Shown here: positions 3,483 to 53,614 of the stretch, piece by piece
How the letters are laid out: every line of letters starts with the position of its first letter
Position numbering within the stretch: position 1 is the stretch's first letter
Source of the DNA: Nemophila menziesii
Taxonomy: Eukaryota > Streptophyta > Magnoliopsida > Boraginales > Hydrophyllaceae
Length of the DNA: 64,000 nt
Direction: 5' to 3'
Assembly: GCA_029959085.1 (NCBI GenBank)
Contig: JARWIR010000021.1
Span: 21,973,620-22,037,619, forward strand
Translations under genes and position numbers: made by a program
The notes under the pieces: model-generated
Databases searched by the model: none
What the model saw: only the letters and a program-made list of their open reading frames with translations
Told to the model about the DNA's origin: nothing

Positions 3483-5460
3483 AAGGATATTAGTTTTAGC
3501 TCTAGTTCTAAAAGAACTCTTCTCATAGATTATTTTTCTTGTCCACTTGGTCAATTATATATATATATATATATTCTTTTTATTGTGAATTTAAGTTAAA
3601 GACATTTGGTAAAATTTATAGAGCTAAGACTAGGATGAGATACTCCATGAGGCAAACATATGGTGTGAGTCATATTGTATTTGCTAATAGTTTTTTTTTT
3701 TGTCAATGGTATTTGCTAATAGTTACACTTCACATTTGAACAATATGCAAGCAATGATATCGAAACATGGGTCCACTTATAGGTTTAACTCAATTTGGAA
3801 GAGAGGAAAATTACATTGGAAGACTATTATTTTAGTTTTGACACCATCTTGTAAGAGGACCTTGTGGGGGCCTTGAGAGCCTCCATTTCCTTTGACCCAA
3901 AAACATTGTACTATCAAATAAATATATTTTAAATTATTAAATTGTAGTCTCCATTTATATAAAATAATGAATTTAATTTATTAGATTCATATCTCATTTT
4001 ATAATTGATAGTAATGCATCTTACCTTCTTAATTATTTTTGTTGTCTTTTTTTGAAATATCATGACCATCCGTCTTATCTTTTAAATTAAATATATTCTT
4101 TGGGTATGCATGACCTGTAGACCATGGAAATAAAATAGTTAGTGTTATTGTATAATATATGATATCAAATAATTTAAATATTTACACGTAATCAGGGGAA
4201 ACTCCATGAGGGCTAAGGAGGTTACAACTCTCGTTGTTTTTGATAAAGTCCATATTTATCCTATTTATAAAACATATGCAAAGAAATTATAAAAATGAAA
4301 TTCAACCGTTGTTGAGTTTTAATTATTAAATTTAGAAGCATAAATATTATATTTTAAACCTTTTAATTCAGTGTACACGTAATAAGTAAATGTATATTAA
4401 TATCAGATGAAATTAAATATTATATGAAAATAAGACACATAAAAATAATAAAATAGTAAATAAATTGTAACAAAGCTATACATAAAAAACTATGAGAAAT
4501 TGTAAAATAAATATTTGTGTTTTATTTTTTTACATTAAACAAAAAAAATTGATCTATTATGAATTAATCCCTTATATATTTTTTGCACAAAAATAATAAG
4601 TATTTCAAAAAAATTGATCATTCTTAAGAACATATACTATTTATTACCCATGGAAAAGAAAAATTTCAAACTAAAATATGACTAATACAAAAAATCTGTT
4701 TTTTTACCATAAAATATACAGAAACATGAAAGGAATAAAATATATAATAAAGAACGTATTTGTGAATTTAATATAAAAAAATTATTTATTTTAGATATGT
4801 CTGTAGATCATTTAGTTGTTTCCTTAATATTCCAAGTAGATAATATTAGGTTCGAGCATAGTCAGTTAACTGGCCAATTTTCCAAAATACCCGACTAACA
4901 ATGGGTCGATGTGTCATTTATGAAAAACGATCAAGAGATGTAAACCCCTACATTATTAGGTTGATTGGTTTATTAAGGTTCAAGGTCAGTTTCGGTACAT
5001 GGTTGGATTCTGGTTAAGATTTAGATCTAAATTCAAACATATCAGAACTTTATACATAAAGTTAGAAAGTTAGATCTAGATCTAGATTCTAGTAATATCC
5101 TAATTCTTTATCAAAATATAGGAAATAAAATATAAATATACATATAATTCTATTTCAGATTTATATTAGATAATATATTTCAATATCATTATAGATCTAT
5201 AATATTGAAATTATTATAGTTTTAGTACATCAGAATTATATTTCAATGTTGCATACAGTATATATGTAGACATTATACCAAAAATTAGACATGATTTATT
5301 GGATCCATATTCATATAAAAAAACAAAAATTAAAGGTAATGGATACTGAACCTGTAACTTTATCGATATAAAAGTTCCAACAATGATCTACAATAAAATA
5401 CCTAAACAAAAATTCCTTGGGATCTCGATGGAAATAGTAAAGAGTCTTGTTGATTTGCTT
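3483..5460. other. AT-rich intergenic stretch
   Basis: No gene, tRNA or recognisable transposon end was seen. A short (AT)n run lies at about 3555-3573 and there are many A- and T-runs. Confidence 0.5.
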
Positions 5461-8798: not shown

Positions 8799-9754
8799 GA
8801 AACAGACTCTAAAAAAATCAAATCTAACATAGATATTGCAAATACAGAAATGGTAGGGAAGAAAGAAAACATACTCTTCGAGGCTATTGCCTCGCATGAT
8901 CAATATCCAAGATAAGGTGTAGTGCTTTTCTTGTATGTAAACTTCTAGTATCACCAATTTCGCATTCCCTTACCTCCTAATATGCTTCATCCCAATCAAT
9001 CATACAACTCTAGAAATCTCTTTTACTTACCTTCTCCAATTTTGTTCTTGAATACTTTGTCATGTGAAGGTGTTCATCCAGGAATCTTTGTTTTAACGAT
9101 AGCTTATAGTGTCATGTAAGTTTCACTCATCTTGGGTATAGATCTTGATATGAAGTGGTTGTGGTGATTTCTCCTTGAAAGATGTAACTGCTCTTCTCTT
9201 TGATTTCACCACTGCTAGCTTCTCTCTACTTACTAGACCTATTTTACCCTTTTCCTTTGTTCTGAACTTGCACCAATCTAAATTAATTTCTCCTTGATCT
9301 TACCCAATACCTTTCTTTGTTTCTTCATATCCCTTAACACTAGATAGCGTCTATGTTCTTTTCGTCATCTTAATTGACCCCCAACTCAAGGATTTGAACA
9401 CTCTTGAACTACCTTATGGTTATAGATATATAAGGTGTTATTTGGGTTAGGAAAGGTGTAAGCATGATGATTCTTTATGTGGGTATGATTAACTCTTGCT
9501 TGGATGATATGGAAAAATATTTGTAATTTTTGAATTTTGACTCTTGGATTCTAGGTGTTGTGGAATGATTTGGATGGTTGAATTCTATTTTTAGAACTTT
9601 AGGTGAGGATTTGGATACGTTATTTATGGTGATTTGGTAGTGTTTTTACGTGAGGTGGAGGTTTGGTGTTTCAAAGGAGGTTGGGGGATTTGGGGAAGAA
9701 AGAGGCTTAAGCTTTATGAATTCGTAAGTGTTATATAAGATAACCTCTTCTCCC

Positions 9755-10290
9755 ATCTCTTTGTTGGCGTCGTGCGCTGCACCACGGGGTTGGTGCAGTC
9801 TACCGCAAAAATCTTCTAATCTTCAAACGTGGCATGGTGCGTCGCGATTCTCGATACGGTTCTTGGGTGCGGTGCACCGCGGGAGTGGTGAGGTGTACCG
9901 CACAGTACTTTCTTTGCTGGCGGAATTTTACATGATTTCATCAAGTGTGGTGACGATTTTTGTTGTTACGGTGTACCGTGTGAATGATGTACTTGATACC
10001 GTGGTACGGTACGCACACGAGTGACGAGATGGATTTTGGTGCGGTGTACAACGCTAAGCTTCTGTCCCTCACAAAAAAACATGTTTTGTTATTTTATCTC
10101 CAAACCAAGTGTACTCTACTCCATTGGATATATCTCAAAAAAATATACGATTTAGACTCGAGAAAAAGTGAATTCTGATATCCGAGTGTAAAGTTATGCC
10201 AGATCGAAGTTCTTGTCGATTTCTATCACTAATCGGTGCGGTGCACTGCGTGTAGCTACGGTGTAGCGCAGATAAATATCTGTCCAGCAT
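9755..10290 (-). repeat. GC-rich palindrome array of element A
   Basis: Several paired, imperfectly palindromic GC-rich motifs lie in otherwise AT-rich DNA. GCGGTGCACCGC (about 9869-9880) is a perfect 12-bp palindrome; others include CGTGCGCTGCACCACG, GGTGTACCGCAC, ACGGTGTACCGT, CGTGGTACGGTACG and GGTGCGGTGCACTGCG. They occupy the same place in the element as the CGGTATACCG array of C and the GCGGTACACCGC array of B. Confidence 0.75.
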
Positions 10291-18060: not shown

Positions 18061-18336
18061 GACATACAGTCCAGAATATATCAACGCCCAAATACTTGAG
18101 ATTGCGAAGAAAGGGCTTACACCGTAACAAGTTTTAACACAAGTAATTCCAGAGAAAGAAACGAGTGTAGAAGCAAGAGAAGAGATTGTGACTCATACTG
18201 AGAAAGTCTCGAGAAGAGTAGAGAAGGAGTTACCAATCAAGCTCAAAGATTCATGAAGCTTTAATCTTCCTATTCAAATTAGTGGTATGCTCTAGATGAA
18301 AGTAATGTGTGATGTGGGTTCGAGTGTGAATCTCAT
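18061..18336 (+). pseudogene. Element B gag-protease linker and protease start
   Basis: This is the continuation of the element B reading frame between the solo LTR and element C. It aligns with residues ~510-555 of the element C protein: an ELPIKLKDS block, FNLPIQISG, then the protease active-site motif MCDVGSSVNL, whose Asp is followed by VGSS instead of the more common LGAS. The frame is cut by element C; the TSD is the last five bases (CTCAT, 18332-18336). One in-frame stop precedes FNLP and another follows ISGML. Confidence 0.78.
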
Positions 18337-19844
18337 TGGTGGGGGCAAAGGTGTGATAAAATAATATATAAATAAAGATAATAATAAAGAACACACACCC
18401 TTGAGAACCACGGAACTCACTGCAAGTATCACAGATCGTTTGCAAGTTTTAATGATAAGTCATGTTCGTTCGCATGGATTGTATACGTTAGATCTACTTA
18501 TGTTTAACAAGCATAGATGAATTTATATGTTTTAGAATAAAATATAAAAAGATAAACTAATATGAATAACTATCTGATGAGAAATAATAAATAAGAATGC
18601 AGATAAATAAATATGGATGTAAGTCTAATAGATTTGGGTCACTTATATGAGTCTATTTTACTAAGTTGTTATTCTAACCTGTCACAGATTAAGCATTATA
18701 TATTAACCAGGATTCTAAATTCTACCTAACCTCTATTAGGCTTGGGAGCAACCTATCCACTACCAAGGATTCCTGAGTAATGATTGGTGATTAAATCAAA
18801 CCCTTATGGCTATCTAGTTGGGCGAAGGATCAAAACTAGACGATTATGTGGTGTTGTCAATAACTAAGAATAATCCTAAGATTGGTCAAATCTAAGGTTG
18901 TAACAAGAAGTCAAAACACATAATAACAATATAGGCCAAGCTCAATCAATTAAAATAACAAATAGTATTATGGAATTAAAGACAAAATAATAACCCAACC
19001 ATTAAAAACTTACAGAATAAAAGCTTAGAAATATGGTTGAGCATAAATTCATAGCTAATTACCCTAAATATAGAGAAGGTGAGATGTAGAAGAGGAGTTT
19101 GTCACTCTCCAACTTCTTCTTCTTGTCTTCCTCTATAGGTCAGCTTGCTTCTTGGATGAATAGCTTGATACTAAGGATGAATATTAAATATAAAGACTAA
19201 GCTATTATTTAAAAGTGAGAAAATACAAGTAAGGACTAAGCCTAAGCTTGCAACTGAGTAAGGACATGTTTACAATGGTATAAGGGTGTATTTATAGGTG
19301 TCTTGGAAGCCCTAATTCGTTTTCTTGAAGGAGAAGTAAGTAGTGGACTCCAAGCCCAACTCTAATTCCTATGGAAATACAGATAATTACTGCTGACTTG
19401 TTTTAATCATATCTTCTTCGTTATTGGTCGGTTTTTAGCCCATAAGATACCAAAAGAATCCTCACGGAATTATCTACGTCCCTATGAAAGGGATCTTCCA
19501 GAATCGGCTCGGTTTTGGAGTTATCACCACTTCTTTAGATGTAGCTCAGCTTTTCCTTTTCCATGATTTTAGCTTTTCTTTCCTTATCTCCAATTACCAT
19601 GCTTATCTCTTTCCATATCTTGTAGCCGTTGACTTGGACTCTAATTAATCTCTATAATTATCTTTAAAGCTTCACACTAAATAAATAATTAAACCCAATA
19701 TGCTCTAAAAATAATAATTTACTAAATCAAAACTCAAAATAGGAAAGTGTAGCATTTCTCAAGAAAATCGACTCAAAGACTTCCTAAATCACTAAAAATG
19801 ATGTCTCATCCTAATATAAATCTATCACAACTGAGGAGACATCA
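18337..19844 (-). mobile_element. 3' LTR of element C
   Basis: This 1508-bp LTR has plus-strand edges TGGTGGGGGCAAAGGTGTGA and GAGGAGACATCA. Compared with the 5' LTR (1528 bp) it lacks a ~20-bp piece around 19546 and differs at scattered bases, so the insertion is not very recent. Confidence 0.92.
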
Positions 19845-21329: not shown

Positions 21330-22339
21330 GAAAAGACTTGAAAATAAAATAAAATAAAATTAAAATTTTACAGATATTGCACATAAAGAAATGGTAAGGA
21401 AGAAAGAAAACATACTCTTCGAGGCTATTTACCTCGCCTGATCAATACCCGGAATAGGGTGCAGTGCTTTCATGTATGTAAACTTCTAGTATCACCAATT
21501 TCGATTTCCCTTACATCTTCTTATGTTTCATCCCAATTAATCACACTTTAGAAATCTCTTGTTTATCTTCTTCCAACTTTGCTCTTGAATAATCTCTCAT
21601 GTGACAGTGTTCATCCAGGAATATGTTTTGAACACATCTACTAGCGTCCCAGAAGCTCTTGTTCATCTTGGGCTAAAGGACTATCGATTGTAGAGGTTGT
21701 AGTGTCTTCTTTATGAAAGTTTACACCTTTTTGCTCTTTGAATTCACCACAGCTAGCTTTCTTCTATTCTCTTGATCCGATTTACCTTGTAGTTATTCCC
21801 AAACTAGTACCCATCTCAACTGATTTCATCCAGAACTTACCCAATACCTTGCTTTGATACTTCATCTCCCATAGCACTTGATAATATCTCTATTCTTTTC
21901 ATCATCTCTTCTGACCCCCAACTCAAAGCTTTGAACACTCTTGAAATTTGTAACTCTTGATCATAGGTGGAACAAGCTTTATTTGGGTTAGGAAAGGTGT
22001 TAGGATGACAATTCTCTATGTGGGTATGATTGAATCTAGCTTTAATGATGTGGGTTTAAGGAATTTTGGGAAAAGATTTTGAAGTTCATGGTTTTCATTC
22101 TTGGTTTCTAGGTGTTTTGATATGATTTGGGTGCTTGAATCTTCTTTGTAATGATATAGGGAAGGATTTGGATGAGAATTCATGGTGATTTGGTAGTGTT
22201 TTGATGTTGGGTGAAGGTTTGTTGAAGCTTTAATGGAGTTGGGAGAGGTTTGGAGAAGAAAGAGAGGCTTAAGGATTAATAAATTCGGAATAATAAGCAT
22301 TATACCTCTTTTATAAGCTCCAATCCCCAATTTTCTCTC

Positions 22340-22610
22340 TCCAGCGGCGCGGCGCGGTATACTGGGCATATCCTCCGGTATACCGGAACTTCTGTTGCTC
22401 CAAAAATTTTCGTCTCGTCAATAAACACGCGCCTCATACCCGTGACACAGGTTTTTGATCCCGCGGTATACCGGGAATATGGTCCGGTATACCGGACCTA
22501 TCGTCCAGAATTTATTTCTTCTCGACACGAAACCCGAGGCACCTACCCGTGACACGGGTTTTTCCTCTGCGGTATACCGGGGATGAAGTCCGGTATACCG
22601 GCCCGATGGT
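22340..22610 (-). repeat. CGGTATACCG palindrome array of element C
   Basis: Three pairs of the perfect palindrome CGGTATACCG (or CCGGTATACCGG) lie about 100 bp apart (near 22345-22390, 22460-22500 and 22568-22606). Within each pair the two copies are about 10-15 bp apart. The first unit of the first pair carries a mismatch (GGTATACTGG). Between pairs is a semi-conserved spacer with CCCGTGACACGGG-type sequence. Confidence 0.9.
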
Positions 22611-22762: not shown

Positions 22763-22800
22763 ATGGGATGTCTCCCAAAGGGCACTTTTGTTTAACGTCT
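22763..22800 (-). other. Post-pol conserved motif of element C
   Basis: On the element strand it reads GACGTTAAACAAAAGTGCCC followed by TTTGGGAGACATCCC. In autonomous Athila/Tat elements a similar TAAACAAAGCGCTT...GGGAGGCAACCC motif follows the integrase (recalled, not searched). Matching motifs lie at 27380-27413 (B) and 35065-35099 (D). Confidence 0.7.
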
Positions 22801-22954: not shown

Positions 22955-25075
22955 CTAAGAACTGTTATGTTTGGGAGGTTTCCATGCCACCTCGTCTCCT
23001 ACCCCAAACTCAATCTTTTTCTCCATGGTTTCTTGGAGACTTTCAGGTTCTGGCTTCTTGGTTACCGCTCTGATTGGATATAGTTCTTTTGACTTCTTTT
23101 TCCTCTTCTTTCCCGAAAAATAGAATGTTTCAGAATCATTTTCAATACTAAGAGTCATAGTTCCTTCATTTACATTCACTATGGTATCGCTGGTGGCTAG
23201 GAATGGACGCCCAAGAATGAATGTGACGTTCTTATCTGCTTTATAGTCAAGAATGATAAAGTCCGTTGGAATAACAAGGTTACCTACTTGAACGAGTACA
23301 TCCTCTATTACTCCCCACGGCTTAACTGTAGATTGATCCGCAAGTTGTAAGATTACGGATGTCGGTTTCGCTTCACTAATACCAATCTTCTTGAATACAC
23401 TTTTGGGCATGATATTCACACTTGCCCCTAAATCACACATGGCTTTTCCATAATATATCCCACCTATTCTGATTGGGAGGTTAAACTCTCCAGGATCTTT
23501 ATGCTTTGGTGGTAATCTTCTTTGAACTCGTGCTGATACCCCTTCATTGATTTCTACAGACTTGGCTCTTGTGAATCTCTTCTTATTGGAGAGTGCCTCC
23601 ATAAAGAATCGATCATAGTTTTTCCTTCCTTCGATAGCTTCGAGTAAAGGGACGTTAATTTTCACTTGTTTTAACGCCTCTATACACTTCTGATGTTGCT
23701 CCACGGGATAGTGGCAATGTATGGGTGTTTGTCTTGCTCTACTTCTCTCTGCAATTCTTGGTTCATCAACCACTCTAGGCTTCTTAATCTCATTATGTTC
23801 AACCTCTTCAACCCAATCTTCAACAATTATCTCATCTAAGTTTATCCGTTTTACTTTTGATTTGTTTGGTAGAATATCCTCTTTTGAGGGAGATGGTAGC
23901 GTTTCGGTGATTATCTCACCGTGTTCTTTAATCTTTTGAGCTTGAAGACTAATAGTCTTAACCCTGTCGTCAACGTATTGGATCTTCTTCATGTTAGATG
24001 TTGTATCTTGGGTCAATTGTAGGAGTTGACTTTGCATTTGTTCTATGATTGTAGTGAGCCACGTTACATTCTTCTCTAAAAGTTGATTATGTTGTTTAAG
24101 ATCTTGATTCTGTTGTTGCAGGCTTTGCACTACTGATGCATCGATCTTTGATTCAAGTCTGCTCATATTATCCTTCGAGAAGTTGATGAATTGACTAATA
24201 GTCACTTTTAACTTAGTGATTTCTTCTTGAGGACGTGATTGAGCTTGACTTACATTATGCACATTGCAGCCTGGTGGAAGATTAGCTTGGTTTTCATAGG
24301 CTTTTTCTTGCAGGTATAACTGTTGAGGTGGCTTTGGGATGCTTTCCTTTACTGTTATAGCGAGTTGATGTATTTGATCTTGCAAGCTTGAAATCCTCGC
24401 TTCTTCTTCTTCGTTAGTGGTAGGAGTTTGTTCTTGCGGCCAACTCATGTTGTTCTCAATGATTGTTTCCATACCACTCTTTGCTTCTTTTGGATCCATA
24501 GAGACAAAATTACCACGACCCGTATTATCTGCTCTCAACCTTGACTCTTTATCGAGTCCATTATAGAACATGGATAAGTGTAATTGTGGCGTGTATCTAT
24601 GTAGTGGACATCTTGCCAACATCTTTTGAAATCTCGTCCATGCTTTGCCAACATTCTCTCTAGCTTCTTGTAAGAAATTCATAGGCTCCAATAGTTCCTT
24701 CACTCGCATACTCGTAGGATAAAATTTATCAAGGAATCTTTCTTGAAGCTTGTCCCAATCGGTTATTAGCTCGGGAGGTTGATCATCTAACCAATCGCTT
24801 GCTTTCCCGGTCAAGAAAAATTGAAACATTAAATAATACATCTGTTCTTGTGTAACACCTTCATTAATGTAGGCATCACAGAATTGCATGAATTTTTGAA
24901 CAGATCTGACCGGATCTTGATTTGTATCACCATTAAATTTCCCATAGCTAGCAAATTGATTAATTAAATCAGGATCAGGCTTGAATCTAACAGCTTGGAT
25001 AGTTGGGACGCGAATCCCAATGCGCTGACCTCGAAATTTACTAGGAAAACCTAGCTCTAACCGTTGATTAGCCAT
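22955..25075 (-). CDS. Gag-protease polyprotein of element C (no pol)
   Basis: This intact 706-residue ORF encodes the structural protein and processing protease of an Athila-type element. Residues ~45-215 are the retrotransposon gag core (FMQFCDAYINEGVTQEQ, then ASDWLDDQPP, WTRFQKMLARCPLHRYTPQL and FVSMDPKEA). Residues ~220-375 are Gln-rich with predicted coiled coil, in place of the CCHC knuckle still present in element B. Residues ~420-510 are an acidic, then basic linker (IIVEDWVEEVE). Residues ~535-650 are the aspartic protease with active site CDLGASVNIMP (Asp ~548), flap region and ILGRPFLAT. The last ~20 residues (FGVGDEVAWKPPKH) resemble an integrase tail, not RT. The ATG at 25075 is about 100 bp after the PBS. 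A stop at 22955 ends it; the frame reopens beyond. Such gag-PR-only elements are usually mobilised by autonomous relatives. Confidence 0.9.
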   Translation of the reverse strand: MANQRLELGFPSKFRGQRIGIRVPTIQAVRFKPDPDLINQFASYGKFNGDTNQDPVRSVQKFMQFCDAYINEGVTQEQMYYLMFQFFLTGKASDWLDDQPPELITDWDKLQERFLDKFYPTSMRVKELLEPMNFLQEARENVGKAWTRFQKMLARCPLHRYTPQLHLSMFYNGLDKESRLRADNTGRGNFVSMDPKEAKSGMETIIENNMSWPQEQTPTTNEEEEARISSLQDQIHQLAITVKESIPKPPQQLYLQEKAYENQANLPPGCNVHNVSQAQSRPQEEITKLKVTISQFINFSKDNMSRLESKIDASVVQSLQQQNQDLKQHNQLLEKNVTWLTTIIEQMQSQLLQLTQDTTSNMKKIQYVDDRVKTISLQAQKIKEHGEIITETLPSPSKEDILPNKSKVKRINLDEIIVEDWVEEVEHNEIKKPRVVDEPRIAERSRARQTPIHCHYPVEQHQKCIEALKQVKINVPLLEAIEGRKNYDRFFMEALSNKKRFTRAKSVEINEGVSARVQRRLPPKHKDPGEFNLPIRIGGIYYGKAMCDLGASVNIMPKSVFKKIGISEAKPTSVILQLADQSTVKPWGVIEDVLVQVGNLVIPTDFIILDYKADKNVTFILGRPFLATSDTIVNVNEGTMTLSIENDSETFYFSGKKRKKKSKELYPIRAVTKKPEPESLQETMEKKIEFGVGDEVAWKPPKHNSS

Positions 25076-25197: not shown

Positions 25198-25203
25198 AAA
25201 ACT

Positions 25204-26731
25204 TGGTGGGGGAAAAGGTGTGATAAAATAATATATAAATAAAGATAATAATAAAGAGCACACACCCTTGAGAACCACGGAAGTCACTGCAAGTATCACA
25301 TATCGTTTGCAAGTTTTAATGATAAGTCAAGTTCGTTCGCAGGGATTGTATCCGTTAGATCTACTTATGTTTAACAAGCATAGATGAATTTATATGTTTT
25401 AGAATAAAATATAAAAAGATAAACTAATATGAATAACTATCTGATGAGAAATAATAAATAAGAATGCAGATAAATAAATATGGATGTAAGTCTAATAGAT
25501 TTGGGTCACTTATATGAGTCTATTTTACTAAGTTGTTATTCTAACCTGTCACAGATTAAGCATTATATATTAACCAGGATTCTAAATTCTACCTAACCTC
25601 TATTAGGCTTGGGAGCAACCTATCCACTACCAAGGATTCCTGAGTAATGATTGGTGATTAAATCAAACCCTTATGGCTATCTAGTTGGGCGAAGGATCAA
25701 AACTAAACGATTATGTGGTGTTGTCAATAACTAAGAATAATCCTAAGATTGGCCAAATCTAAGGTTGTAACAATAAGATAAAACACATAATAACAATATA
25801 CGCCAAGCTCAATCAATTAAAATAACAAATAGTATTATGGAATTAAAGACAAAATAATAACCCAACCATTAAAAACTTACAGAATAAAAGCTTAGAAATA
25901 TGCTTGAGCATAAATCTATAGCTAATTACCCTAAATATAGAGAAGGTGGGATGTAGAAGAGGAGTTTGTCACTCTCCAACTTCTTCTTCTTGTCTTCCTC
26001 TATAGGCCAGCTTGCTTCTTGGATGAATAGCTTGATACTAAGGATGAATATTAAATATAAAGATTAAGCTATTATTTGAAAGTGAGAAAATACAAGTAAG
26101 GACTAAGCCTGAGCTTGAAACTGAGTAAGGACATGTTTACAATGGTATAAGGGTGTATTTATAGGTGTCTTGGAAGCCCTAATTCGTTTTCTTGAAGGAG
26201 AAGTAAGTGGTGGACTCCAAGCCCAACTCTAATTCGTATGGAAATAAAGATAATTACTGCTGACTTGTTTTAATCATATCTTCTTCGTTATTGGTCGGTT
26301 TTTAGCCCATAAGATACCAAAATAATCCTCACGGAATTATCTACGTCCCTATGAAAGAGATCTTCCAGAATCGGCTAGGTTTTGGAGTTATCACCACTTC
26401 TTTAGACGTAGCTGCAGAAATTCAGATTTAAGGCAGTTTTTCCTTTTCCATGATTTTAGCTTTTCTTTCCTTATCTCCAATTACCATGCTTATCTCTTTC
26501 CATATCTTGTAGTCTTTGACTTGGACTCTAATTAATCTCCATAATTATCTTTAAAGCTTCACACTAAATAAATAATTAAACCCAATATGCTCTAAAAATA
26601 ATAATTTACTAAATCAAGACTCAAAATAGGAAAGTGTAGCATTTCTCAAGAAAATCGACTCAAAGACTTCCTAAATCACTAAAAATGATGTCTCATCCTA
26701 ATATAAATCTATCACAAATGAGGATACATCA
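25204..26731 (-). mobile_element. 5' LTR of element C
   Basis: This 1528-bp LTR has plus-strand edges TGGTGGGGGAAAAGGTGTGA and GAGGATACATCA. A TATA-like element (CTATAAATACACCC on the minus strand) sits at about 26153-26166. The right edge carries one substitution in the otherwise conserved GGAGACATCA arm. Confidence 0.92.
26153..26166 (-). promoter_or_regulatory. TATA box in 5' LTR of element C
   Basis: On the minus strand the sequence is ACCTATAAATACACCC, preceded by GACACCT. Its position in the LTR agrees with the TATA sites of B and D. Confidence 0.55.
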
Positions 26732-27375: not shown

Positions 27376-27413
27376 GAAAGACGTTAAACAAAAGTGTTGT
27401 ACGGGAGACAACC
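27376..27413 (+). other. Post-pol conserved motif of element B
   Basis: GAAAGACGTTAAACAAAAGTG followed by a spacer and GGGAGACAACCC marks where the polyprotein region ended in the ancestor. It is shared with C and D. Confidence 0.7.
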
Positions 27414-28271
27414 CACAATTTTTTTTATGTTCTTATGTCCTTAATTTATGTTTATGATAAGTTGTTTTTAGTAGATATTACAGTATTGAGAAAGGTATTA
27501 ATGTTTTTGATGTGTGGGTACTTAAGAAATCAAGGGGGAGAAAAATTGCAAAATTAGCGAAAACTAGAACTCCTGTGCGGTACACCGCATGAGGGCTCCG
27601 GTACACCGCAGACAAGAAGACCGTGACACGGTTCAGCGAAACGGTCTAGCACAAAATGAACTGTCTCGTCATTCGCTCCAGACTATGGTGACGGTTCCCA
27701 ACAGAAGACCCGCGTGGTACACCGAAGGGTAGGTCTGTTGCACCGCACCAACCCAGACCGTCACAATGGTAGTACAGATCACGTATTTTGCCGAGAGCAC
27801 ACTGGTCCAGACCGTATCGTCAAAAACGTGGAACAGGATCAAGAAATATTTCGTGCGGTACACCGCACCGCCCGCTAGAACGTGTTATAAGAAGGTTTTT
27901 AAAGAGAAGGTTAGTTATATCCCGAATTTTTAATCCCTAAGCCTCTCTTTCTTCCCCAAAGCTTCCTTACATGTATTAAAGCTTCTACAAACCTTCACCA
28001 TACATCAAAACACTACCCAATCACCATAAATCTACATCCAAATCATTCCCCACATCATTATAAAGAATATTCAACCACCCAAATAATATTAAAACTCCTA
28101 GAATCCAAGAATCAAAGCCCAAACTTTCCAAATCTTATCCAACAAATTCTTAAAATCCATACTAATCAAGCAAGAGTTCATCCTACCCACATATAGATTC
28201 ATCATCCTCACACCATTCCTAACCCGAACAACACTTGTTCAACCTAAACTCAAGGGTAACATATTTCAAGA
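27414..28271 (+). repeat. GCGGTACACCGC palindrome array and leader, element B
   Basis: Between about 27577 and 27868 the near-palindrome GCGGTACACCGC or CGGTACACCGC occurs repeatedly (27577, 27599, 27715 variant, 27855), with degenerate copies such as GTTGCACCGCAC and GTGACACGGT. The rest (27870-28271) is A/C-rich, with CATCAAAACAC and CCAAATCAT-like repeats, and is non-coding. Confidence 0.8.
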
Positions 28272-28304: not shown

Positions 28305-29335
28305 ATGATGAATAGAACAAAAACATTATCTATTGTTATGGAGATGAAGAGGGGTCAAAATAAGGTATTGGGTTCTCTTGAGAAGAAGACAATTAAGAAA
28401 AGTTCAAGATCTAGTATGAAGAAAAAGGGTAAAACATGTCAAGATAGTAGAGTAAAGCCGGTTGTGGTAAATTCAAAGAACAAAAAGATTACAACTTTCA
28501 AGAAGAAGACACCACAACCTCTACAAATCGAGATTCCTATACCCAAGATGAATTAATCTTCAAAGGTCTTGTTAGCTTCCACAAAGAAAAACTTACCGGA
28601 CTTGCCTTTTGCTCATGAAAGAGTATTCGTAAAAGAAGTTGGAGAAGGTGAGTACAAGAGATTCTTAGAGATGGGAGATAGATTGGGGTTGTTTACATTC
28701 ATGATGAGAAGTTCAAATTTGTATATGGAGTTAATTTCCAAGTTCTATTTAGGCCTTTTTAACCGAGATAGTGAAGATCGTGTTCCAGTTAAAGGCAAGT
28801 TAGTTCCTTTTACAGTTGAAGAGATTAGAAACCACTCCCGTTCAAGAAATTGGTGGGATCATGTAAGTTTAGAGAGGTCGTGGAAAATATCAAGACTCTC
28901 GATTGGAATCAAATTTTTGAGCATGTATTAGATGAATAGAAAGTGCAGTCACATAAGGGAGAATTGAAGGCATCTTGGCCTTACGAATATCTTCAAGCGG
29001 ATACAAGAGTTTTGCACAATTTTCTTACACCAAACGCCTTTGGAAACACGTGAACTTCAGATGTAACTATAAGGAACGCCATCTTTTTGAATTGTCTTTT
29101 AAGAGGAGAAGAAGTAGATGTGGTACAATTGATCTTTGAGGAGGTGATGCGATTTCCGGTCTCTCCCCTTACGTTATCTAATGTAAAATGTCCTACTATG
29201 ATCGCGTACCTTGTACGAAAAGAGAATGTGATTCCGGGTGAAGAAGAGAAAATAATGTATAAGATGAGTAATGATATTGACAATACTTGGATCAAGACAA
29301 TTTTGAGAGGAGAAGGAGTTACGAGACCTCCATAA
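28305..29335 (+). pseudogene. 3' ORF with putative plant transposon protein domain
   Basis: This broken ORF follows the deleted pol region of element B. The N-terminus is Lys-rich (28305-28556, ends at TAA). The same frame reopens at 28569 with a domain found in plant retrotransposon 3' ORFs annotated as putative plant transposon protein: a YMELISKFYLGLF block, VPVKGKLVPFTVEEI, then, after stops and a shift, a RNAIFLNCLLRGEEVDVVQL block and an MIAYLVRKENV block (29060-29240). The domain's biochemical role is unknown to me. Stops near 28554 and 28929 and a frameshift before 29087 inactivate it. Elements A and C keep only a few hundred non-coding bases at this point. Confidence 0.65.
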
Positions 29336-31165: not shown

Positions 31166-32091
31166 TGTCTCCCTATTTGTGATATAATAATATTGGTTGG
31201 AGAAATCAATTTATGTGTTTATGATTAATTAATTATACAATTTTTCGTATTTTGATAAATTCTTATTTCTTGTCTTGATTTGGTGATTATTATTTTTAGA
31301 GCATATTTGGTTTAATTTGTGTGTTAATGTGAAGATTTAAATATATATGAAATATAATTAGATGTCAAATCAATTCTAAGAAGATAAGGAAAGAAGATAT
31401 GGAAGGAATTAAGAGATTAAAGGAAGTAGAGATAAAAAAGGAAAGGAAAAGCTGCCAAGTAAATCTGAAATTCTGTAGCCATGTCCACTAAAATGAATAT
31501 AACTTCATATAGGAAGGTAATTTGGATGAGCAATCATAATAGAAAGTGTATATCTTTTCTCTGCAGTCGTTTTGATATAAAGTAGGAAAAAATCGGACTA
31601 ATAACGAAAGATATACGGCCAAAACAAGACAACGGTGTTTATCCCTTCTCTTATATTTTAGGAAACGAATTTGAGTTGCACTTGGACTCAAATTTCTTCA
31701 TTTCTACTCCAATATTTCAACCAAGCGTCTTCCTAGCACCTACAAATATACCCTCTTATCATTGTAAACATGTCTATTCCTCTCTTTAACCAGCCCTTAG
31801 TATTATTCATCATACAAGTCATTCAAGAAAAGCAAGTTGACCGTATGTATTTTTATTTTAGTTTATTTCTTGTTAGCATGAACTAATTTTCCCATAGCTT
31901 GGGTTTGGCATATGTATAATCTGTGAATTCTATTTTCTTCTATCTAAGTTTTTTTGGGGAAACCCTTTTAAATTGATTATAACTTCTTAACCATATATTT
32001 GTTTTATGTGCTTTGATTTAATTCCAGACTTAATCTTGATCACGTTAGGGTTGTCTTAATAGTAGTTAGATGGTCACCCGAAAGGGGTGCC
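31166..32091 (+). mobile_element. 3' LTR of element B, left piece
   Basis: This matches 12362 to about 13292 of the 5' LTR, starting at a TGTCTCCC edge that has lost two bases (GA) of the usual TGATGTCTCC. It is interrupted by element D directly after the mini-hairpin CACCCGAAAGGGGTG (32075-32089). Confidence 0.85.
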
Positions 32092-33682
32092 TGATGTCTC
32101 CCTTTTTGTTCTAATTATATGATCTTAGGAGACATCATTTTAGGTGATTAATTGACTTATTTAATAGACTTTTAAGCTTATTTGATTATATTGCGTTTTC
32201 TTCCCTTGGAATTTAGTTTATTTCATTTTTAAAGCTTTTGCACGTTAAATGGTTTGTTTTAGTGCAAAATTTGTAGGTCCATGGATTAGATGGAACACCA
32301 AGACAAGTAAATGAATAAATAATTAAAGTCATAGATCGATTGTAAAAGTCAAACGCGAGAAAAGTTGATTCGAAGAATTTATTAGAAAGGAATGGAATCT
32401 GAAATGTTGTTACAAATAACTGTTTTTGAGTATCTTAGCCACTGATTCAGCCTTGGAGCATATAATAAGAACTATAGAGCTTGAAGTCAGGAAGATTTTC
32501 CAAGCTGAACGAAGTGATTCCGAGTTCGGACGCAAAAGTTAAAGTTGTTTTACTAACAACTGTACATCAATTACGGGATTTCATTTAAGGATTGGGCTTT
32601 TATTCATTTAACCTAATCCTCTTAATTAAAAATCCCAATCCAACTCCACTATAAATACACCTTTAGACCTCATTATTCAACACCTCTCACTTTATTCTTC
32701 AAGTTAAATCATCTTTAGAAGAGAACGTCCAAAGGAGAAGCAAGAGCAGGAGTTGGAGAAAGTTATTCTTCCAACTACAGTCATATTCAATCCTTTAATT
32801 AAGTTCTATCTTTTATTTCTGTAACTGATAATGAATTCCTTTACTTTTATTTCTTTAGTTTTTAATTCGATTATGAACTAATTTCATTTGTGCTTGAGAA
32901 TCGCTTTAATGGGTTGAGCCCCAATTAAATTTAATTAGTATTTTTGAATTTGGGATTGAAAGATTTAATTTTAATTGGGTAATTTAGTATTTTCTATTAT
33001 CGTGAATTTATTTACTGTCTTTGAAGTCATGAATCAAAAATAGGAATTAGTAATTAAGCTATTCATTATAGTGGCATAATGATCACCTTGACTGGGGGTT
33101 TAGTTACAGAACTAGATAATAGATGTAAGATATAAATTATTGATCCTGACGGACTTAGTTAATCTTATAGCCAATTGGGTAAAACACTTGAACATTCAAA
33201 GGTAGCTTATAATCACCCTGACGGGGTTTGTAATACCCTAGGATAGCTCCTAAGTCCACCCTGACGGGGGTTAGGAGAAACTAGAATCCCGACTAATATT
33301 AATTACCAATTCGACCCTTAAACGAAAGTATTAATTGAATAAATTTAGGTGAAACCCTTGCAAAACTCAAGTACTACTTCTCATCCTTGCGTCTACTCAT
33401 ATTTTATTTACTTGCGTCTTATTTATTTGCATTGGTCAATTTAATATTTTACTTTATTGCATTATAGTCCTTAATCGAAAACCATAACAAATATCTTATC
33501 CATTTACTTTTATTTCTCATTCAAACAACTATTTCAATTTATTGCATAACACTTGAGTCATATCCAATCCGTCCCTGAGATCGAATTCCCGTTTACCGGA
33601 TATTACTTGGACGACCTGTACACTTGTGGTACGTGTCTTGCCTTTTTAGGTGTGTTATTTTAGAACACACAAGGAGACCCCA
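32092..33682 (+). mobile_element. 5' LTR of element D
   Basis: The edges are TGATGTCTCCCTTTTTGTTC and AAGGAGACCCCA. The first 50 bp hold TGATGTCTCC...GGAGACATCA. A TATA-like CTATAAATAC lies at about 32649. Four CCTGACGGGG-type motifs (about 33093, 33148, 33213 and 33260) lie downstream in the transcribed part. Confidence 0.9.
32649..32658 (+). promoter_or_regulatory. TATA box in 5' LTR of element D
   Basis: CTATAAATAC occurs in the context CTCCACTATAAATACACC; the 3' LTR has the same site near 38681. Confidence 0.6.
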
Positions 33683-33688
33683 AGTTTT

Positions 33689-33706
33689 TGGCGCCGCTTT
33701 CGGGAA
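33689..33706 (+). other. Primer binding site of element D
   Basis: TGGCGCCGCTTTCGGGAA begins six bases after the LTR end, in the same position and with the same first nine bases as in element C. Confidence 0.85.
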
Positions 33707-33847
33707 CGGTAGCGTGTGACCACGGTGTTATCTGTAGGTGTGATAGTTGTTATTTTATTTTATTTTTCAGTTTTACGCTTGTCTTTGTTTTTGTTTTGTT
33801 TTACAGGTTCTTTATTCAGGATAATGATCAAGAAATTTTAAGTAAAG

Positions 33848-34300
33848 ATGTATGGAGGACATTATCCAAATCCTGGTCCATTTGATTATTTGGAAGACTC
33901 TTCGGGACAACAGAATTGGGGTAGTAACTTCTACCAACCACCTTATCAACACCCGCAAGAGCAAGGATGGAACAACCAATGGACCAGGAACAATAAACAA
34001 CAATCACCTTATCACTATCAACAAGAACAAGGATGGAACCACCATTGGGTTGAGAATAATCAACAACAACCATTGTATCACTATGAACAAGATCAAATAT
34101 GGAACATTCATCAACCTCCACAAATAACTCTTGCCGATTTGAATGAAACACTTGCTAAATACATGTGCGATTCCGAGGAAAGCAGTTCCAAATTGCAACA
34201 GGCACTAGACAAATATATTGCCAATAGTAGCAAATCTTATGAAGATTCAACACCCCCAAGGGATGGAAGAGACCAACTCGAAGAAGTAGTTGAGGAGTAA
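33848..34300 (+). CDS. Gln/Tyr/Trp-rich repeat protein of element D
   Basis: This 150-codon ORF starts at an ATG 140 bp after the PBS, where gag normally starts. It begins MYGGHYPNPGPFDYLED and contains about three copies of a ~22-residue unit (QEQGWNxxWxxNNxQQxPYHYQ, residues ~36-85), followed by an acidic helix-like end (LADLNETLAKYMC, then SSKLQQALDKY). It resembles the low-complexity spacer next to the zinc knuckle in Athila-type gags, without the gag core or the knuckle itself. It could be a translated relic or a new small protein; there is no clear evidence of function. Confidence 0.5.
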   Translation: MYGGHYPNPGPFDYLEDSSGQQNWGSNFYQPPYQHPQEQGWNNQWTRNNKQQSPYHYQQEQGWNHHWVENNQQQPLYHYEQDQIWNIHQPPQITLADLNETLAKYMCDSEESSSKLQQALDKYIANSSKSYEDSTPPRDGRDQLEEVVEE

Positions 34301-35060
34301 GTGTTGAAAAAAAATATTAGTGATAGTAATATGACCACCATGCCAATTATAAATGGAAACTACCATGTGGTTGAGAATCTTGTTAGCATAGTGGAAGAAG
34401 GAGTAGCAACGCAAATCCTAGAAGTTAACACATAAATTGCTATGCCTATGGTGCGTGCACATGATCAAGATATAGAACGCAGAAAGGAAGAAGAGGTGGT
34501 CGAGATTAGAGAGATTCCACAACAAGAATATGATGAGGTAATAGTGGAAGATTGGGTTGAAGACGAAGACGAATGTGAAGTGGTTGAGGAGTCAATTTAA
34601 GAATTAAAAGCTCACAATAAAATAAAAGTTGAATCTCCGCCACAGAAAGTGTACCAACTACCATATCCACCAAGAATCTTGAATGAAAGTAGAGCTGAAG
34701 AATCACCTCCTTTATCAACAATGATCAATATGTGCTATACAAGCAAGGTGCCACACCGCGAGAGTAAAGCGGCAAGGAGGAGCACCTACCCACCATATTT
34801 TAAAGATGAATACGAGGAATAAAAATAGGCTTATACAGTTGAAAACGATCATCTACTATCATGTGGTGGAAAATGAGTTTCGCGATGAGAGCAAGGAGGC
34901 GAAACGGAGACATTACCCACCCCCTTTCAAATATCGATTAAATCAAAGGTTAGGTGGGAAAGTACCAAAAGTTTCATATAAAGGAAGAGGCGGGTTTAAG
35001 CGGAGGAACACCGCGAAAGCCTCAATACAATCTTCATGGAAGGTAACGCGTCGAACTTAA
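34301..35060 (+). pseudogene. Gag-protease linker debris of element D
   Basis: The frame after the 150-aa ORF continues with stops and shifts. An IVEDWVEDEDE block (about 34540-34570) matches IIVEDWVEEVE in the linker of the element C protein. After it comes a PYPPRIL / SRAARR-like basic stretch and no protease motif. The region runs into the GACGTTAAAC-type motif at 35060, so protease and pol are deleted here. Confidence 0.6.
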
Positions 35061-35801
35061 AAACGTAATAAACAAAAGTGCTTCTTGGGAGACAACCCAT
35101 GTTATAAATTGCTTTCATGTCTTAGAATTCTTAGTGTAAACTAGAGTAATTTATGTTTATTAGTGTATAATTTTTAAGAAATGAGAAAGGTTGGTGTTTT
35201 TTATGATTACAGGAGTAAAGGTCTTGAGTTTGGGGTAGGTAGCGCAAAAAAGAATGAAATATTTGGGTTACAATACAGTAGAAACCGGGAACCCGGTTGC
35301 TAGCAACCAGGAACCCGTTTTTGGAGTTGTACCCCGGTTATCAAAACTTCGGAAGTCATAATTTGACGCTCGGAGGTCGGAATTAACTTTTTCTTGAGCC
35401 TAAACCACTTATTTTTTCGAGACCTATCCAATGGTGAAGTAAAAAAGATATGATAAACATCTCAAACTTTCTGACGTGTGCGTAAAGGGAGAGGCAAATC
35501 GTGGTGCAAAAAGGAAGAAAAATAGAATTTTGAGAAAAATGGTAACTCCAATGGAAAATCTGAGTAGTCCAATGGATCGGGAGCATAATTTCAAATAAAA
35601 ATAAGTATAAATTTTGCGAGAATTCGAGGTGTAGGCAAGGAGAAATCGAAAAAAATAAGATGGAAATTTCTGCGCGAATACGCAACCCCTTGCGTCCAAC
35701 GAGTCGGAAATTCGCGGGCGAATAGCCAACCTGTTTTCCACAAGTCGGGAACCCAGGTTTCCAAAGCCAACTCTCTGACCCCCTGCGTAACGATAGACGC
35801 A

Positions 35802-35870
35802 AGGTGGTTGCGTCCGGAAAAAATTCAAAACCGGGTACCCGGTTTGAATTTTTTTTTCCAGACGCCACCT
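35802..35870. repeat. Long palindrome centred on CCGGGTACCCGG, element D
   Basis: AACCGGGTACCCGGTT is a perfect 16-bp palindrome (35829-35844). Its flanks extend the symmetry: AGGTGGTTGCGTCCGG on the left against CCAGACGCCACCT on the right, with A-runs against T-runs between. Total imperfect stem is about 33 bp. GGAACCCGGTT-like copies lie at about 35287, 35310 and 35730-35755. Confidence 0.9.
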
Positions 35871-36750
35871 GGTTTCCGTCGGCGAAAATTGACCTAAACC
35901 TTGAGGAAACCTTATTTTTCCCTTTCCTTTGGCCTCCAACACATGAAACGCCATTGATGACGAACCAAAGCTCCCAAAACACTCAAATTCCATCATCAAA
36001 ACACCAAAATATCACCAATACATCTCTCTAAACATCATCCCAACACATAATCAATCACAAATCTTTCCAAAAACACCAAGAAATCAACTTCTAATCCAAA
36101 TTTTTTCTTCACCAAAGTTTAAATTATATCCTTTAAACCTCTCAAACACCATAGATAATGACTACCCATCTCAATTAAACCACCATTGTCACTACTGTGC
36201 CACCTTCAACAACATCCAAAGACACAAATTTCATCAATAGCTTTTGTGCTTTGAAGGTTGGAGATTGCAAGTGCAATTCCACGATCAATCCGGTAAAATA
36301 GCTAGAACTCTTCTTTTCTTTCTATTACCAGTTGGGAATTAAGATTTGTTTTAGTTATTTATTGGAGGAATTGTGAATTGTTTGAGCCTACCATTATATA
36401 TTTTGCAAGTAATCTTTAAGTAGGTGAAAAATTGAGTTTGGAAGGTTGGAAAAGGTATGAAGAACATGATGAAGAAAGAAAGTTGGGTATTGAGGGAAGA
36501 TTTTCATAGAGGAGATGATGATTTAGAGAGCTAGGAAAAGATGGAGAGTTGGGAAATATGACAAAAGAGTTCGAGGTAATGAAGAACAATTTATTCAAGA
36601 TGAACACAGCAAGTAATGATCTTTAGAGCTTGATTCAGAACCTCAACCTGAGACTACACGTAATCGGCCTAGTGCCGATCCAGATATGATTTCCTATCCT
36701 TTCTCATTTAGTAGTGTATATTATTTTTATTCCCTTTATAGAGTCTTTTT

Positions 36751-36770
36751 GAGTCATGGGGACACGACTC
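36751..36770 (+). repeat. Conserved hairpin before PPT-like motif, element D
   Basis: GAGTCATGGGGACACGACTC has seven of eight stem pairs and loop GGGA, followed by ATTTTTGAGTTTGGGGTG. Confidence 0.8.
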
Positions 36771-38120
36771 ATTTTTGAGTTTGGGGTGAGGTGTCGTGGC
36801 CTCATCCCAATTTTATGTGTTATGCATTTTTACAGCTTTTCAAAAAATTTAAAATCAAATAAAAAATAGTTTAAGGAATGATTTGACTATAGAGTTCTTT
36901 GAATGTCCCCATAAGCATATTTTATGTAAATTAATGATAGTAAATAGTAGACCTTAGAGTTAATGTAAAACGCAACTTGAATACATGCAAACACTAGATG
37001 ATTGATAAGAAAAATTAATGAAGAATGCAAAAGAAGTAAGCTTGTACATGGTAATAATGAGTGGTGTGTAGAACGTGAGATCTAAATGAGTAGAGAACAC
37101 ACTTAATTATGAACTAAAGGTGAACTATGTATCTAGGAAAATGATAGAGGCGGTTCTTTGATAGCCATTTGAGACCTTTTTAGCTTTCTAACCCGTGATT
37201 AAATGTTATATCCTTCTTAGCCCCATTTTTATGCCTTTTTGCCTTTCTTTTGAAGCCACATTATAAGCTTATCCTTTAGGTATTAGGACTATACCGTATG
37301 ACCCGCACTTGAATCACGATTGCTTAAGACTAGTTGTCCTTGAGGTTGAGTTTGGGGTGGGGGAATCTATTATTACATCTGTTGGGTAGATTTGTGATTT
37401 TCTTGAATAATTATGCACTTTATTGTATATTCCTTTGCCGATTTGTAAAAAAAAAAGAAAAAAAAATTTAGAAAATAAGTTAGCATGAAATCTCACATTT
37501 AAAAGAATGTCATGTTTAACTTACAAAAAAAAAGAGATTGAATAAATATTGAAATAAAAGAAACATCAAAGGAATATTTTGGTAATCATATTGATAGGTT
37601 GGGTTTACTTGGGGACGCTAAATTTTTTCGTCAAGAGAGTGAGATCATATGTGAGTGTAAACTCAAGCTCAGAACAGTTTGTTGAAGGCTAGTAAGGAGA
37701 GAGCCAAAAACACACTTTTCATTATCCAAATGTACCATACCGTCCCTAAGCCTACGCTAAAACCGTAAAGTCCTCGTGATTCTTGGGTACATAGTGAATT
37801 AAAAATTCTACTAATAGGGAGTAAGTTAAGTGGAACGTTCAAAGTGAGTAAAGATTGATAAACACCCTATAGCCACCATCTCGTGCTAAGTATAAAGTGT
37901 AATCTTCTAGAATTATGAAGTTAATTTTGGATTGAAATTATTTATGTGTTTGATTTTGTACGATAGGTGCATGTGTACATTAATTCTTAGGTTGTACTAT
38001 ATGAAATTTATTTTGAGTTTTGCTTTAGGTTTATTCTTTAGATTCTGCATGTTGCTTCTTACCTTGGATCTCTGTTTTATTTTACTTTGTCAGGACGACA
38101 AAGGTTTGAGTTTGGGGTCT

Positions 38121-39712
38121 TGATGTCTCCCTTTTTGTTCTAATTATATGCCCTTAGGAGACATCATTTTAGGTGATTAATTTACTTATTTGATAGACTT
38201 TTAAGCTTATTTAATTATATTGCGTTTTCTTCCCTTGGAATTTAGTTTATTTCATTTTTAAAGCTTTTGCACGTTAAATAGTTTGTTTTAGTGCAAATTT
38301 GTAGGTCCATGGATTATATGGAACACCAAGACAAGAAAATTAATCAAGAATTAAAGTCATGTATCGATTGTAAAAGTCAAAGGCGAGAAAAGTTGTTTCG
38401 AAGAATTTATTAGATGGGAATGGAATCTGGAATACTGTTACAAATCACTGTTTTTGAGTATCTTAGCCACTGATTCAGCCTTGGAGCATGAATAAGAACT
38501 ATAGAGCTTGAGGTCAGGAAGATTTTTCAAGTTGAACGAAGTGATTCCAAGTCCGGATGAAAAAGTTACAGTTGTTTTACTAACAGTTGTACATCAGTTA
38601 CGGGATTTCATTTAAGGATTGGGCTTTTATTCATTTAACCTAATCCTCTTAATTAAAAAACTCAATCCGATTTTCTCCACTATAAATACACCTTTATACC
38701 TCATTATTCAGTACCTCTCACTTTATTCTTCAAGTTAAATCATCGTTAGAAGAGAACGTCCAAAGGAGAAGCAAGAGTAGGAGCTTGAGAAAGTTATTCT
38801 TCCAACTAAAGTCATATTCAATCCTTTAATTAAGTTCTATCTTTTATTTCTGTAACTGATAGTGAATTCCTTCACTTTTATTTCTTTAGTTTTTAATTCA
38901 ATTGTGAACTAATTTCATTTGTGCTTGAGAATCGCTTTAATAGGTTGAGCCCCAATTTATTTAATTAGTATTTTTGAATTTGGGATTGAAAGATCTAATT
39001 TGAATTGGGTAATTTAGTATTTTCTATTATCTTGAATTTATTTACTATCTTTGAAGTCATGAATCAAAAATAGGAATTAGTAATTAAGTCATTCATTATA
39101 GTGGCGTAATGATCACCTTGACAGGGGGTTTAGTTACAGAACTAGATAGTAGATGTAAGATATAAATTATTGATCTTGATGGAATTAGTTATTCTTATAG
39201 CCAATCAGGTAAAACACTTGAACATTCAAAGGTAGCTTATAATCACCCTGACAGGGTTTGTAATACCCTAAGATAGCTCCTAAGTCCACCCTGGCGGGGG
39301 TTAGGAGAAGCTAGAATCCCGACTAATATTAATTACCAATTCGACCCTTAAACGAAAGTATTAATTGAATAGATTTAGGTGAAACCCTTGCGAAACTCAA
39401 GTACTACTTCGCATCCTTGCGTCTACTCATATTTTATTTACTTGCGTCTCATTTATTTGCATTAGTCAATTTAATATTTTACTTTATTACATTTTAGTCC
39501 TTAATCGAAAAGAAAAACAAATATCTTATCCATTTACTTTTATTTGTCATTCAAACAACTATTTCCATTTATTGCATAACACTTGAGTCATATCCAATCC
39601 GTCCCTGAGATCGAAATCCCGCTTACCGGATATTACTTGGACGACTCGTACACTTGCGGTACGTGTCTTGCCTTTTTAGGTGTGTTATTTTAGTACACAC
39701 AAGGAGACACCA
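38121..39712 (+). mobile_element. 3' LTR of element D
   Basis: The edges are TGATGTCTCCCTTTTTGTTC and AAGGAGACACCA. It matches 32092-33682 throughout with scattered substitutions and small indels, so D is younger than B. Confidence 0.9.
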
Positions 39713-53550: not shown

Positions 53551-53614
53551 TTAATCTCGTGCGCTTGATCTTATTACCATCCAATGGCTCTCATTCGCTC
53601 GTGGTCTTTGTCTC

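Follow-up and report, generated by a model that had tools for sequence, protein, structure and literature searches.

Introduction

The closest known system to the one described here is that of the RM boxes of Sireviruses (Ty1/copia), CGG-CCG palindromes with one version per element that lie in CpG-rich islands in the LTR and upstream of ENV (PMC2829016). The LTR cluster of RM boxes is located just before the TATA box, and the available part of this account calls the RM specific to Sireviruses, as opposed to classic retrotransposons (PMC2829016). In Athila6A of Arabidopsis, the ENV ORF has a promoter, and the route of silencing is linked to the presence of that promoter (PMC4977677). Two looser analogues are the VANC targets of VANDAL elements, short motifs that vary between related families and sit in rapidly evolving tandem repeats of the elements' non-coding DNA (PMC5735166), and the family-specific tandem repeats of Retand, which occupy the same part of Ty3/gypsy elements, non-autonomous ones included (PMC11963269).

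Here we describe palindrome arrays in Athila-like Ty3/gypsy elements of Nemophila menziesii, starting from a 64-kb window (the whole stretch of DNA analysed, C121:21973620-22037619, in a genome of 1,516,695,462 bases or 1.52 Gb). The arrays share with Sirevirus RMs the CGG-CCG core, the many copies and the richness in CpG, and Table 3 of that source has very similar motifs, for example CGGTCGACCG from Vitis (PMC2829016). They differ in that the gag is of the gypsy type whereas RM hosts are Ty1/copia elements, and in that the 12 core sites of the window all lie outside its LTRs, whereas RMs sit in the LTR too (PMC2829016). The spacer within the core is almost always N4 here, against N4 to N6 in Table 3 by our own count, and a pairing at 21 bp, which characterizes the present arrays, finds no mention for Sirevirus RMs in the available part of that account (PMC2829016). 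Because the gag is gypsy-type and the window LTRs are free of core sites, the arrays do not count as Sirevirus RMs; judging by the evidence so far, they nonetheless seem to work in a similar way.

With Athila6A the arrays share the presumed lineage and a promoter internal to the element serving the ENV frame, which in our case is a predicted one; the available part of the Athila6A account is silent on palindromes, arrays and spacing (PMC4977677). VANC targets differ in belonging to VANDAL elements, in that the motifs quoted are non-palindromic and in being bound by a known element-encoded protein (PMC5735166), and the Retand repeats differ in lineage and in being described, in the text available, as tandem repeats and not as paired palindromes before a TATA box (PMC11963269). 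We found no description of such arrays in Athila in searches of an open-access collection, which leaves out most subscription journals.

Results

Four Athila-like elements are nested in the window

The window contains four nested Athila-like elements, A to D. Element C lies on the minus strand between a 5' LTR at 25203..26731 and a 3' LTR at 18336..19844, which are 96.3% alike over 1529 aligned columns (36 differences in 1509 aligned bases). Its gag-protease frame of 706 aa (22955..25075, minus strand) matches Retrotrans_gag PF03732 (2.3e-11) and the aspartyl protease PF13650, gives a weak Ty3-capsid-like match as well, and has no match to RT, RNase H or integrase in the Pfam scan. With pol missing, the class assignment of C rests on this gag and protease, which are of the Ty3/gypsy type (tested on element C only). 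With the same frame as query, no related locus was found in viral contigs, and a protein database returned none at E 1e-3. Protein matches on both flanks of C suggest that C interrupts the protease part of B. Element B lies on the plus strand, and its 3' LTR is interrupted by D (32084..39712, plus strand), whose LTRs, at 32084-33682 and 38114-39712, are 93.9% alike (91 differences in 1595 aligned bases). Element A, on the minus strand, is represented by its 3' part only.

The preliminary description took these elements to be pol-less. This holds for C; for B and D it follows from distances only, since the protease match of B (to 27047) comes close to the motif at 27380 and only 1.4 kb separates the 5' LTR of D from its motif, and A is a 3' fragment. 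We take the lineage to be Athila from known landmarks, among them the GGGAGRCAACCCA motif, and from the naming in the preliminary description rather than from an RT tree. In both C and D, TTGGCGCCGCT stands just inside the 5' LTR, and we presume it to be a primer binding site of the tRNA-Asp type, an Athila trait.

A post-pol motif, GACGTTAAACAAAAGTG, marks the upstream edge of the array site in C (22783..22799, minus strand), where the array lies between gag-protease and the downstream region, and recurs in B (27380..27396, plus strand); even with three mismatches allowed, its matches in the window are confined to B and C. The arrays had been placed at one fixed position just 3' of this motif. 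That is correct for B and C, while D carries only a more distant variant, and the placing of A rests on flank homology because A is cut off before the motif. The flanks align on both sides of the arrays of A, B and C, and in D over the upstream part only (about 170 bp at 70%).

The arrays share a CGG-N4-CCG core

The palindrome clusters were confirmed in all four elements. The array of C (22353..22605, minus strand) is built of three units that follow one another at 106-109 bp, and every unit holds a pair of CGGTATACCG palindromes at 21-bp spacing (22355/22376, 22464/22485 and 22570/22591; the copy at 22355 has one mismatch), in agreement with the earlier reading of three tight pairs about 100 bp apart. 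Within it, CCGGTATACCGG is found at 22375, 22484 and 22590, and CGGTATACCG at 22464 and 22570. The array of B (27577..27867, plus strand) has GCGGTACACCGC-type sites at 27578 and 27599, 21 bp apart, and at 27856, as well as a one-mismatch site near 27715; GCGGTACACCGC itself is at 27577 and 27855, and CCGGTACACCGC at 27598. The array of A (9755..10290, minus strand) holds exact cores at 9870 and 9969 together with degenerate ones, which form two pairs, at 20 and 21 bp, when one mismatch is allowed; GCGGTGCACCGC occurs once (9869-9880), the remainder being degenerate. In D (35280..35870, plus strand), CGGGAACCCG at 35286 is followed 22 bp on by a one-mismatch site at 35308, and CGGGTACCCG lies at 35832; AACCGGGAACCCGGTT spans 35283-35298 and AACCGGGTACCCGGTT, which occurs once, 35829-35844. 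The D array thus has two good palindromes but is sparse, with sites only at both ends of about 590 bp. Nor are all palindromes perfect: GCGGTACACCGC of B and the first palindrome of D each consist of inverted 5-bp half-sites that flank an asymmetric centre of 2 bp.

A second palindrome class accompanies the first. In C it takes the form ACCCGTGACACGGGT (22545..22559, minus strand, with a decayed copy at 22438-22452) and in B the form ACCGTGACACGGT (27620-27632, plus strand), and its core CCGTGACACGG (27621-27631 in B) is common to both. Similar palindromes occur in the neighbouring copies F, H and I and in some of the copies sampled across the genome (see below). As CCCGT-NNC-ACGGG, this class recurs between the pairs (in L058-L077 and in the window), and its outer bases vary, A..T in B and C..G in C.

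Compared with dinucleotide shuffles, perfect dyads are in excess in C (6 against 0.66, a number reached in 0 of 1000 shuffles), D (3 of 1000) and B (14 of 1000), which rules out a chance origin for these three; in A they are not convincingly above chance (83 of 1000). Taken on its own the A array would be weak, and it stands only through the shared core and spacing.

According to the preliminary description, the palindrome differs from element to element. The sequences do vary, but all four share CGG-N4-CCG, in the forms CGGTGCACCG (A), CGGTACACCG (B), CGGTATACCG (C) and CGGGTACCCG (D); the half-site core is CGG...CCG, usually CGGT-NN-ACCG. All 12 CGG-N4-CCG sites in the window lie inside arrays (two in A, three in B, five in C and two in D), and CGG and CCG at other spacers from 0 to 9 give 0-5 matches each. 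In 260 kb of flanking sequence there are 24 more core sites, 14 of them in five further array copies, E to I, the other 10 being solitary or part of other repeats; over window and flanks together (324 kb), 26 of 36 core sites are inside arrays. The CpG observed/expected ratio is 1.14-1.47 in the arrays against 0.61 in the window.

Array copies occur throughout the genome

With three mismatches allowed, the post-pol motif has 12,632 matches in the whole genome and none in the reversed control. From 100 listed places, all exact motif matches, we took 20 copies of 701 bp each, one to three for each of 15 types of the 5-base loop of the motif; palindromes were no criterion in this choice. The exact core is present in 13 of these 20 copies, at 38 sites, compared with 2.4 in shuffled sequence (maximum 10 in 300 shuffles). 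Counts at other spacers are 0 for N2, 0 for N3 and 1 for N5; N8 (13) and N9 (8) are raised, probably through the half-sites of neighbouring palindromes. The exact core is absent from the other seven sampled copies (L060, L062, L065, L068, L069, L071 and L075), of which, by eye, L060, L062 and L065 retain pairs that resemble a degraded CGGTATAC, and L075 shows a different inverted motif, GCGGACTACCC...GTCCGC. A GC-rich palindrome array is likewise absent from two elements with the GGGAGACAACCCA motif within the 200 kb to the right of the window.

The palindromes are thus found in other copies too, in E to I in the 260-kb flanks and in the sampled copies genome-wide, and these two sets rule out slippage in this copy only. 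The arrays are a real, genome-wide feature, more ordered than had been seen in the preliminary description, and not every copy or family carries the palindromes. The two array-less elements (C121 at about 22074376 and 22161768, minus strand) show direct repeats by eye and offer a natural contrast set. Elsewhere in the genome (G000:C270:2451222-3092822), the minus strand carries 11 exact copies of the motif, 47-81 kb apart and all with the same loop, TATAC, a pattern that looks like segmental or satellite-like amplification around one Athila-like element.

Palindromes are paired at about 21 bp

In the 20 sampled copies, with one mismatch allowed in the core sites, 21 pairs are spaced at 20-22 bp, compared with 3.5 under random placement of the sites (maximum 11 in 3000) and 0.6 in shuffled sequence (maximum 5 in 200); 13 of the 20 copies have such a pair. 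The local arrays A, B, C, D, E, F, G and I together hold 14 pairs at 20-22 bp. Placement tests on single arrays gave values of 0.022 for A, 0.006 for C, 0.079 for E, 0.023 for F and 0.012 for G, and are weak for B (0.19), D (0.17) and I (0.28).

Across the genome there are 28,187 CGGTNNACCG pairs with a gap of 1-31 bp, counted irrespective of host element, against 11 in the reversed control. Among the first 60 distinct places listed, all within the initial 3 Mb of a single contig and some of them near-identical to one another, 46 pairs are spaced at 21 bp, seven at 20 bp and one at 22 bp (54 of 60), and the remaining six at 13 bp. The 13-bp pairs occur, for example, at G000:C1:1223083-1223201, 1228491-1228609 and 1638026-1638143, and form tandem sets about 95 bp apart.

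Palindromes are conserved over their surroundings

When 14 repeat units were aligned (three each from C and G, two each from E, F and I, one each from H and B), mean pairwise identity was 0.88 for one palindrome and 0.90 for the other, compared with 0.51 in the intervening spacer and with 0.39 and 0.47 in the adjoining sequence. The ten units placed at 21 bp, a set that leaves out E, H and the second unit of I, gave 0.90 and 0.94 for the palindromes, 0.50 for the spacer and 0.43 beside. The units were anchored on the core sites, which inflates the core identity; the four central bases were not used as an anchor, and they are 0.80-1.00 alike in the ten-unit alignment.

Symmetry also extends outward from the core. 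Counting the innermost pair as offset 0, complementarity at dyad offsets 5, 6 and 7 in the 38 sampled sites is 0.50, 0.47 and 0.58, compared with 0.36, 0.30 and 0.42 for shuffled partners (p = 0.04, 0.01 and 0.01), in a statistic that carries no phylogeny and treats related, non-independent copies. In 50 local sites the corresponding values are 0.50, 0.44 and 0.50 against 0.34, 0.28 and 0.30, and at offsets 8 and 9 neither set has a clear excess. By this shuffled control, symmetry is kept beyond chance, as had been supposed. The further suggestion of selection for the palindromic form as such, with sequence free to change, does not fit this genome, where the core mostly stays and it is the four central bases and the outer flanks that change.

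A second plant has a different palindrome at the same site

A DNA pattern scan of prokaryote genome records returned 22 matches, one of which (L023) has by eye a plant-like Athila context; two pattern matches in viral contigs were judged by eye to be chance. The former lies in LFMX01000071.1, from an assembly named Candidatus Burkholderia humilis, and its surroundings, a gypsy-like gag and a plant-type DNA-transposon frame identified by eye, look like plant DNA carried along in a symbiont assembly, presumably that of the host of this leaf symbiont. Two of three motif sites in the LFMX01 assembly, L050 and L052, have the palindrome ATCGCCG-N-CGGCGAT at the same site after an Athila-like motif, with neighbouring dyads 21 bp apart in L050 and 20 bp apart in L052; other dyad spacings, from 8 to 41 bp, are present too. 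TATAAG and a CT-rich stretch follow the palindromes of L050, and L052 has no TATA box. At the third site, L051, there is no array in the plant-like part. Site and pairing thus recur with another palindrome, in an instance seen once. Symmetric C-to-T and G-to-A changes, such as those between L052 and L050, were not counted as evidence of compensation, because CpG decay hits both arms alike. In the L051 contig, plant-like sequence appears to give way to bacterial-looking sequence.

A TATA box and a CT-rich stretch follow part of the arrays

In C, a TATA box (TATAAA, 22310..22315, minus strand) lies 30 bp past the last core site, followed by the CT-rich CCTCTCTTTCTTCTCC (22252-22267, minus strand). 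In B, TATAAG (27886..27891, plus strand) lies 21 bp past the last core site, and a CT-rich stretch is at 27942-27957 (plus strand); in A, there is a TATA-like box (TATATA, 9732..9737, minus strand) and a CT-rich stretch at 9692-9705 (minus strand). The array of D has a CT-rich stretch (35915-35930, plus strand) and no TATA box after it. Overall, TATAAR or TATATA is found 21-90 bp past the last core site in seven of eight local arrays (A, B, C, E, F, G and I), which amount to few independent events because the flanks are homologous; 18.7% of 100-bp stretches of the window hold a TATA box. A script found CT-rich stretches after A, B, C, G, I and D and none in E and F. Of the 20 sampled copies, 8 have a TATA box no more than 100 bp past the last site; of the 11 with at least 100 bases left, 6 have one, and L062, L064, L067, L071 and L073 have enough room and no TATA box. 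A TATA box is thus a feature of some families and not of others.

The frames listed downstream of the arrays in these copies are all short, at most 199 aa, and some are antisense. A 124-aa frame downstream of the B array (28557..28931, plus strand) is a candidate remnant of the post-pol, env-like ORF; its match to PF20167 (E 0.019, 15.3 bits) is below the cut-off of 45. The list of frames, with a Pfam search of this 124-aa frame, yielded no candidate for the co-evolving trans-acting partner that the preliminary description had envisaged. That the palindromes are kept with only short frames after them suggests that they serve the element as a whole in cis, or that their conservation comes from functional relatives. 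In the downstream region of B there is also a near-perfect direct duplication of 154 bp (95%; 30291-30670), with 226 bp from start to start.

Discussion

We propose that these Athila-like Ty3/gypsy elements carry, in the array, a cis-regulatory block built from repeated sites for a dimeric DNA-binding protein. Each palindrome consists of two inverted half-sites, with a constant half-site and a variable centre. Since centres about 21 bp apart correspond to two helical turns, the two dimers of a pair would sit on the same face of the DNA, where they could bind cooperatively, and tandem duplication would account for the gain and loss of units of about 107 bp. The block has the gag/pol part on one side and the downstream, env-like region on the other, and in a fair proportion of copies a TATA box and a CT-rich stretch come shortly after it; it would most likely act as the upstream element of an internal promoter. 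The two-turn spacing with a free spacer, the constant half-site and the TATA box in some copies are the grounds on which we favour a dimeric protein, of host or element origin, that binds in pairs. A protein-recognition site, one of two readings offered in the preliminary description, thus appears to be the best one, to which the fixed 21-bp pairing adds a stronger argument. Judged from sequence, the case for an array of binding sites is strong and that for a promoter role, perhaps limited to some families, moderate; to the reading as a whole, with paired sites for a dimeric protein two helical turns apart at an internal promoter, we would give slightly better than an even chance. A literature search on LOB-domain proteins yielded no known plant factor for CGG-N4-CCG.

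The arrays might instead be the target sites of an element-encoded anti-silencing protein of the VANC kind, which autonomous relatives would make and which would bind the array, remove methylation over the element and serve pol-less copies in trans. VANC targets, too, are short tandem motifs in non-coding DNA that vary between related families, although the VANC motif quoted in the available text, YAGTATTAC, is not palindromic (PMC5735166). Such targets would accommodate CpG-rich palindromes that are kept though only short frames follow, and the many sampled copies without a TATA box, but no gene of this kind was found in these copies, and the TATA box right after seven of eight local arrays suits a promoter better. 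We consider this alternative unlikely, if well worth keeping in mind.

A neutral origin, in which the region between pol and the 3' LTR is simply hypervariable and the motif persists by descent and duplication, appears improbable. Family-specific tandem repeats are indeed common at this place in Retand, where the source, as far as available, gives their origin and function as unknown (PMC11963269). The array of C is plainly built of tandem units of 106-109 bp, and several copies and families are without palindromes. Neutral repeats would, however, hardly keep the palindromes at about 0.9 identity while spacers fall to about 0.5 and flanks to about 0.4, nor hold flank symmetry above shuffles, nor place an unlike but similarly paired palindrome at this site in another plant. 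Furthermore, CpG-rich sites should decay fastest in methylated neutral DNA.

We give still less credence to an array that acts as RNA, through hairpins or kissing palindromes for dimerisation or packaging, or through the production of small RNAs, which are drawn to palindrome clusters in maize Sireviruses (PMC10760457). The analysis adds little to the dimerisation or packaging role suggested earlier. RNA of the C array folds better than every one of 200 shuffles (z -5.6) and that of D better than every one of 100 (z -3.05), but the effect is weaker in B (z -2.2; two shuffles in 100 fold as well) and A is ordinary in this respect (z -1.2; 12 in 100). Folding of this kind is expected anyway because any like palindromes pair with one another, and duplex DNA is indicated by the asymmetric centres of B, A and D as well as by pairs set 20-22 bp apart around a free spacer. 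Nor does anything observed suggest a part in target choice, the third role raised earlier.

Returning to paired sites for a DNA-binding dimer, the likeness to Sirevirus RMs raises a tentative possibility, which we would sooner doubt than assert, that Athila-like Ty3/gypsy and Sirevirus Ty1/copia elements have converged on CGG-CCG arrays upstream of an envelope-like gene, bound by a dimer of dimers on one face of the helix. Site and reader, the latter element-encoded or from a small family of host factors, would then co-evolve while the two-turn geometry stays fixed. Should copia and gypsy elements both have acquired this device, a single host factor may connect them. Although the non-coding DNA of these elements is commonly dismissed as junk in decay, a geometry of about 21 bp recurs through this genome as the surrounding sequence drifts, which amounts to a directly testable prediction about a DNA-binding dimer. 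The arrays thereby bear on the open question of how envelope-like genes in plant retrotransposons are expressed and silenced.

Other features of the window

The window also contains a copia-type element (53446-58950) with LTRs that are 97.2% alike and an open polyprotein frame of 1349 aa, identified by eye, flanked by LINE-like frames on the minus strand (50231-53499 and 58818-60546, also by eye). Two self-complementary stretches of about 270 bp, at 3216-3483 (91% alike) and 49673-49945 (68%), are hairpin-like MITE candidates.
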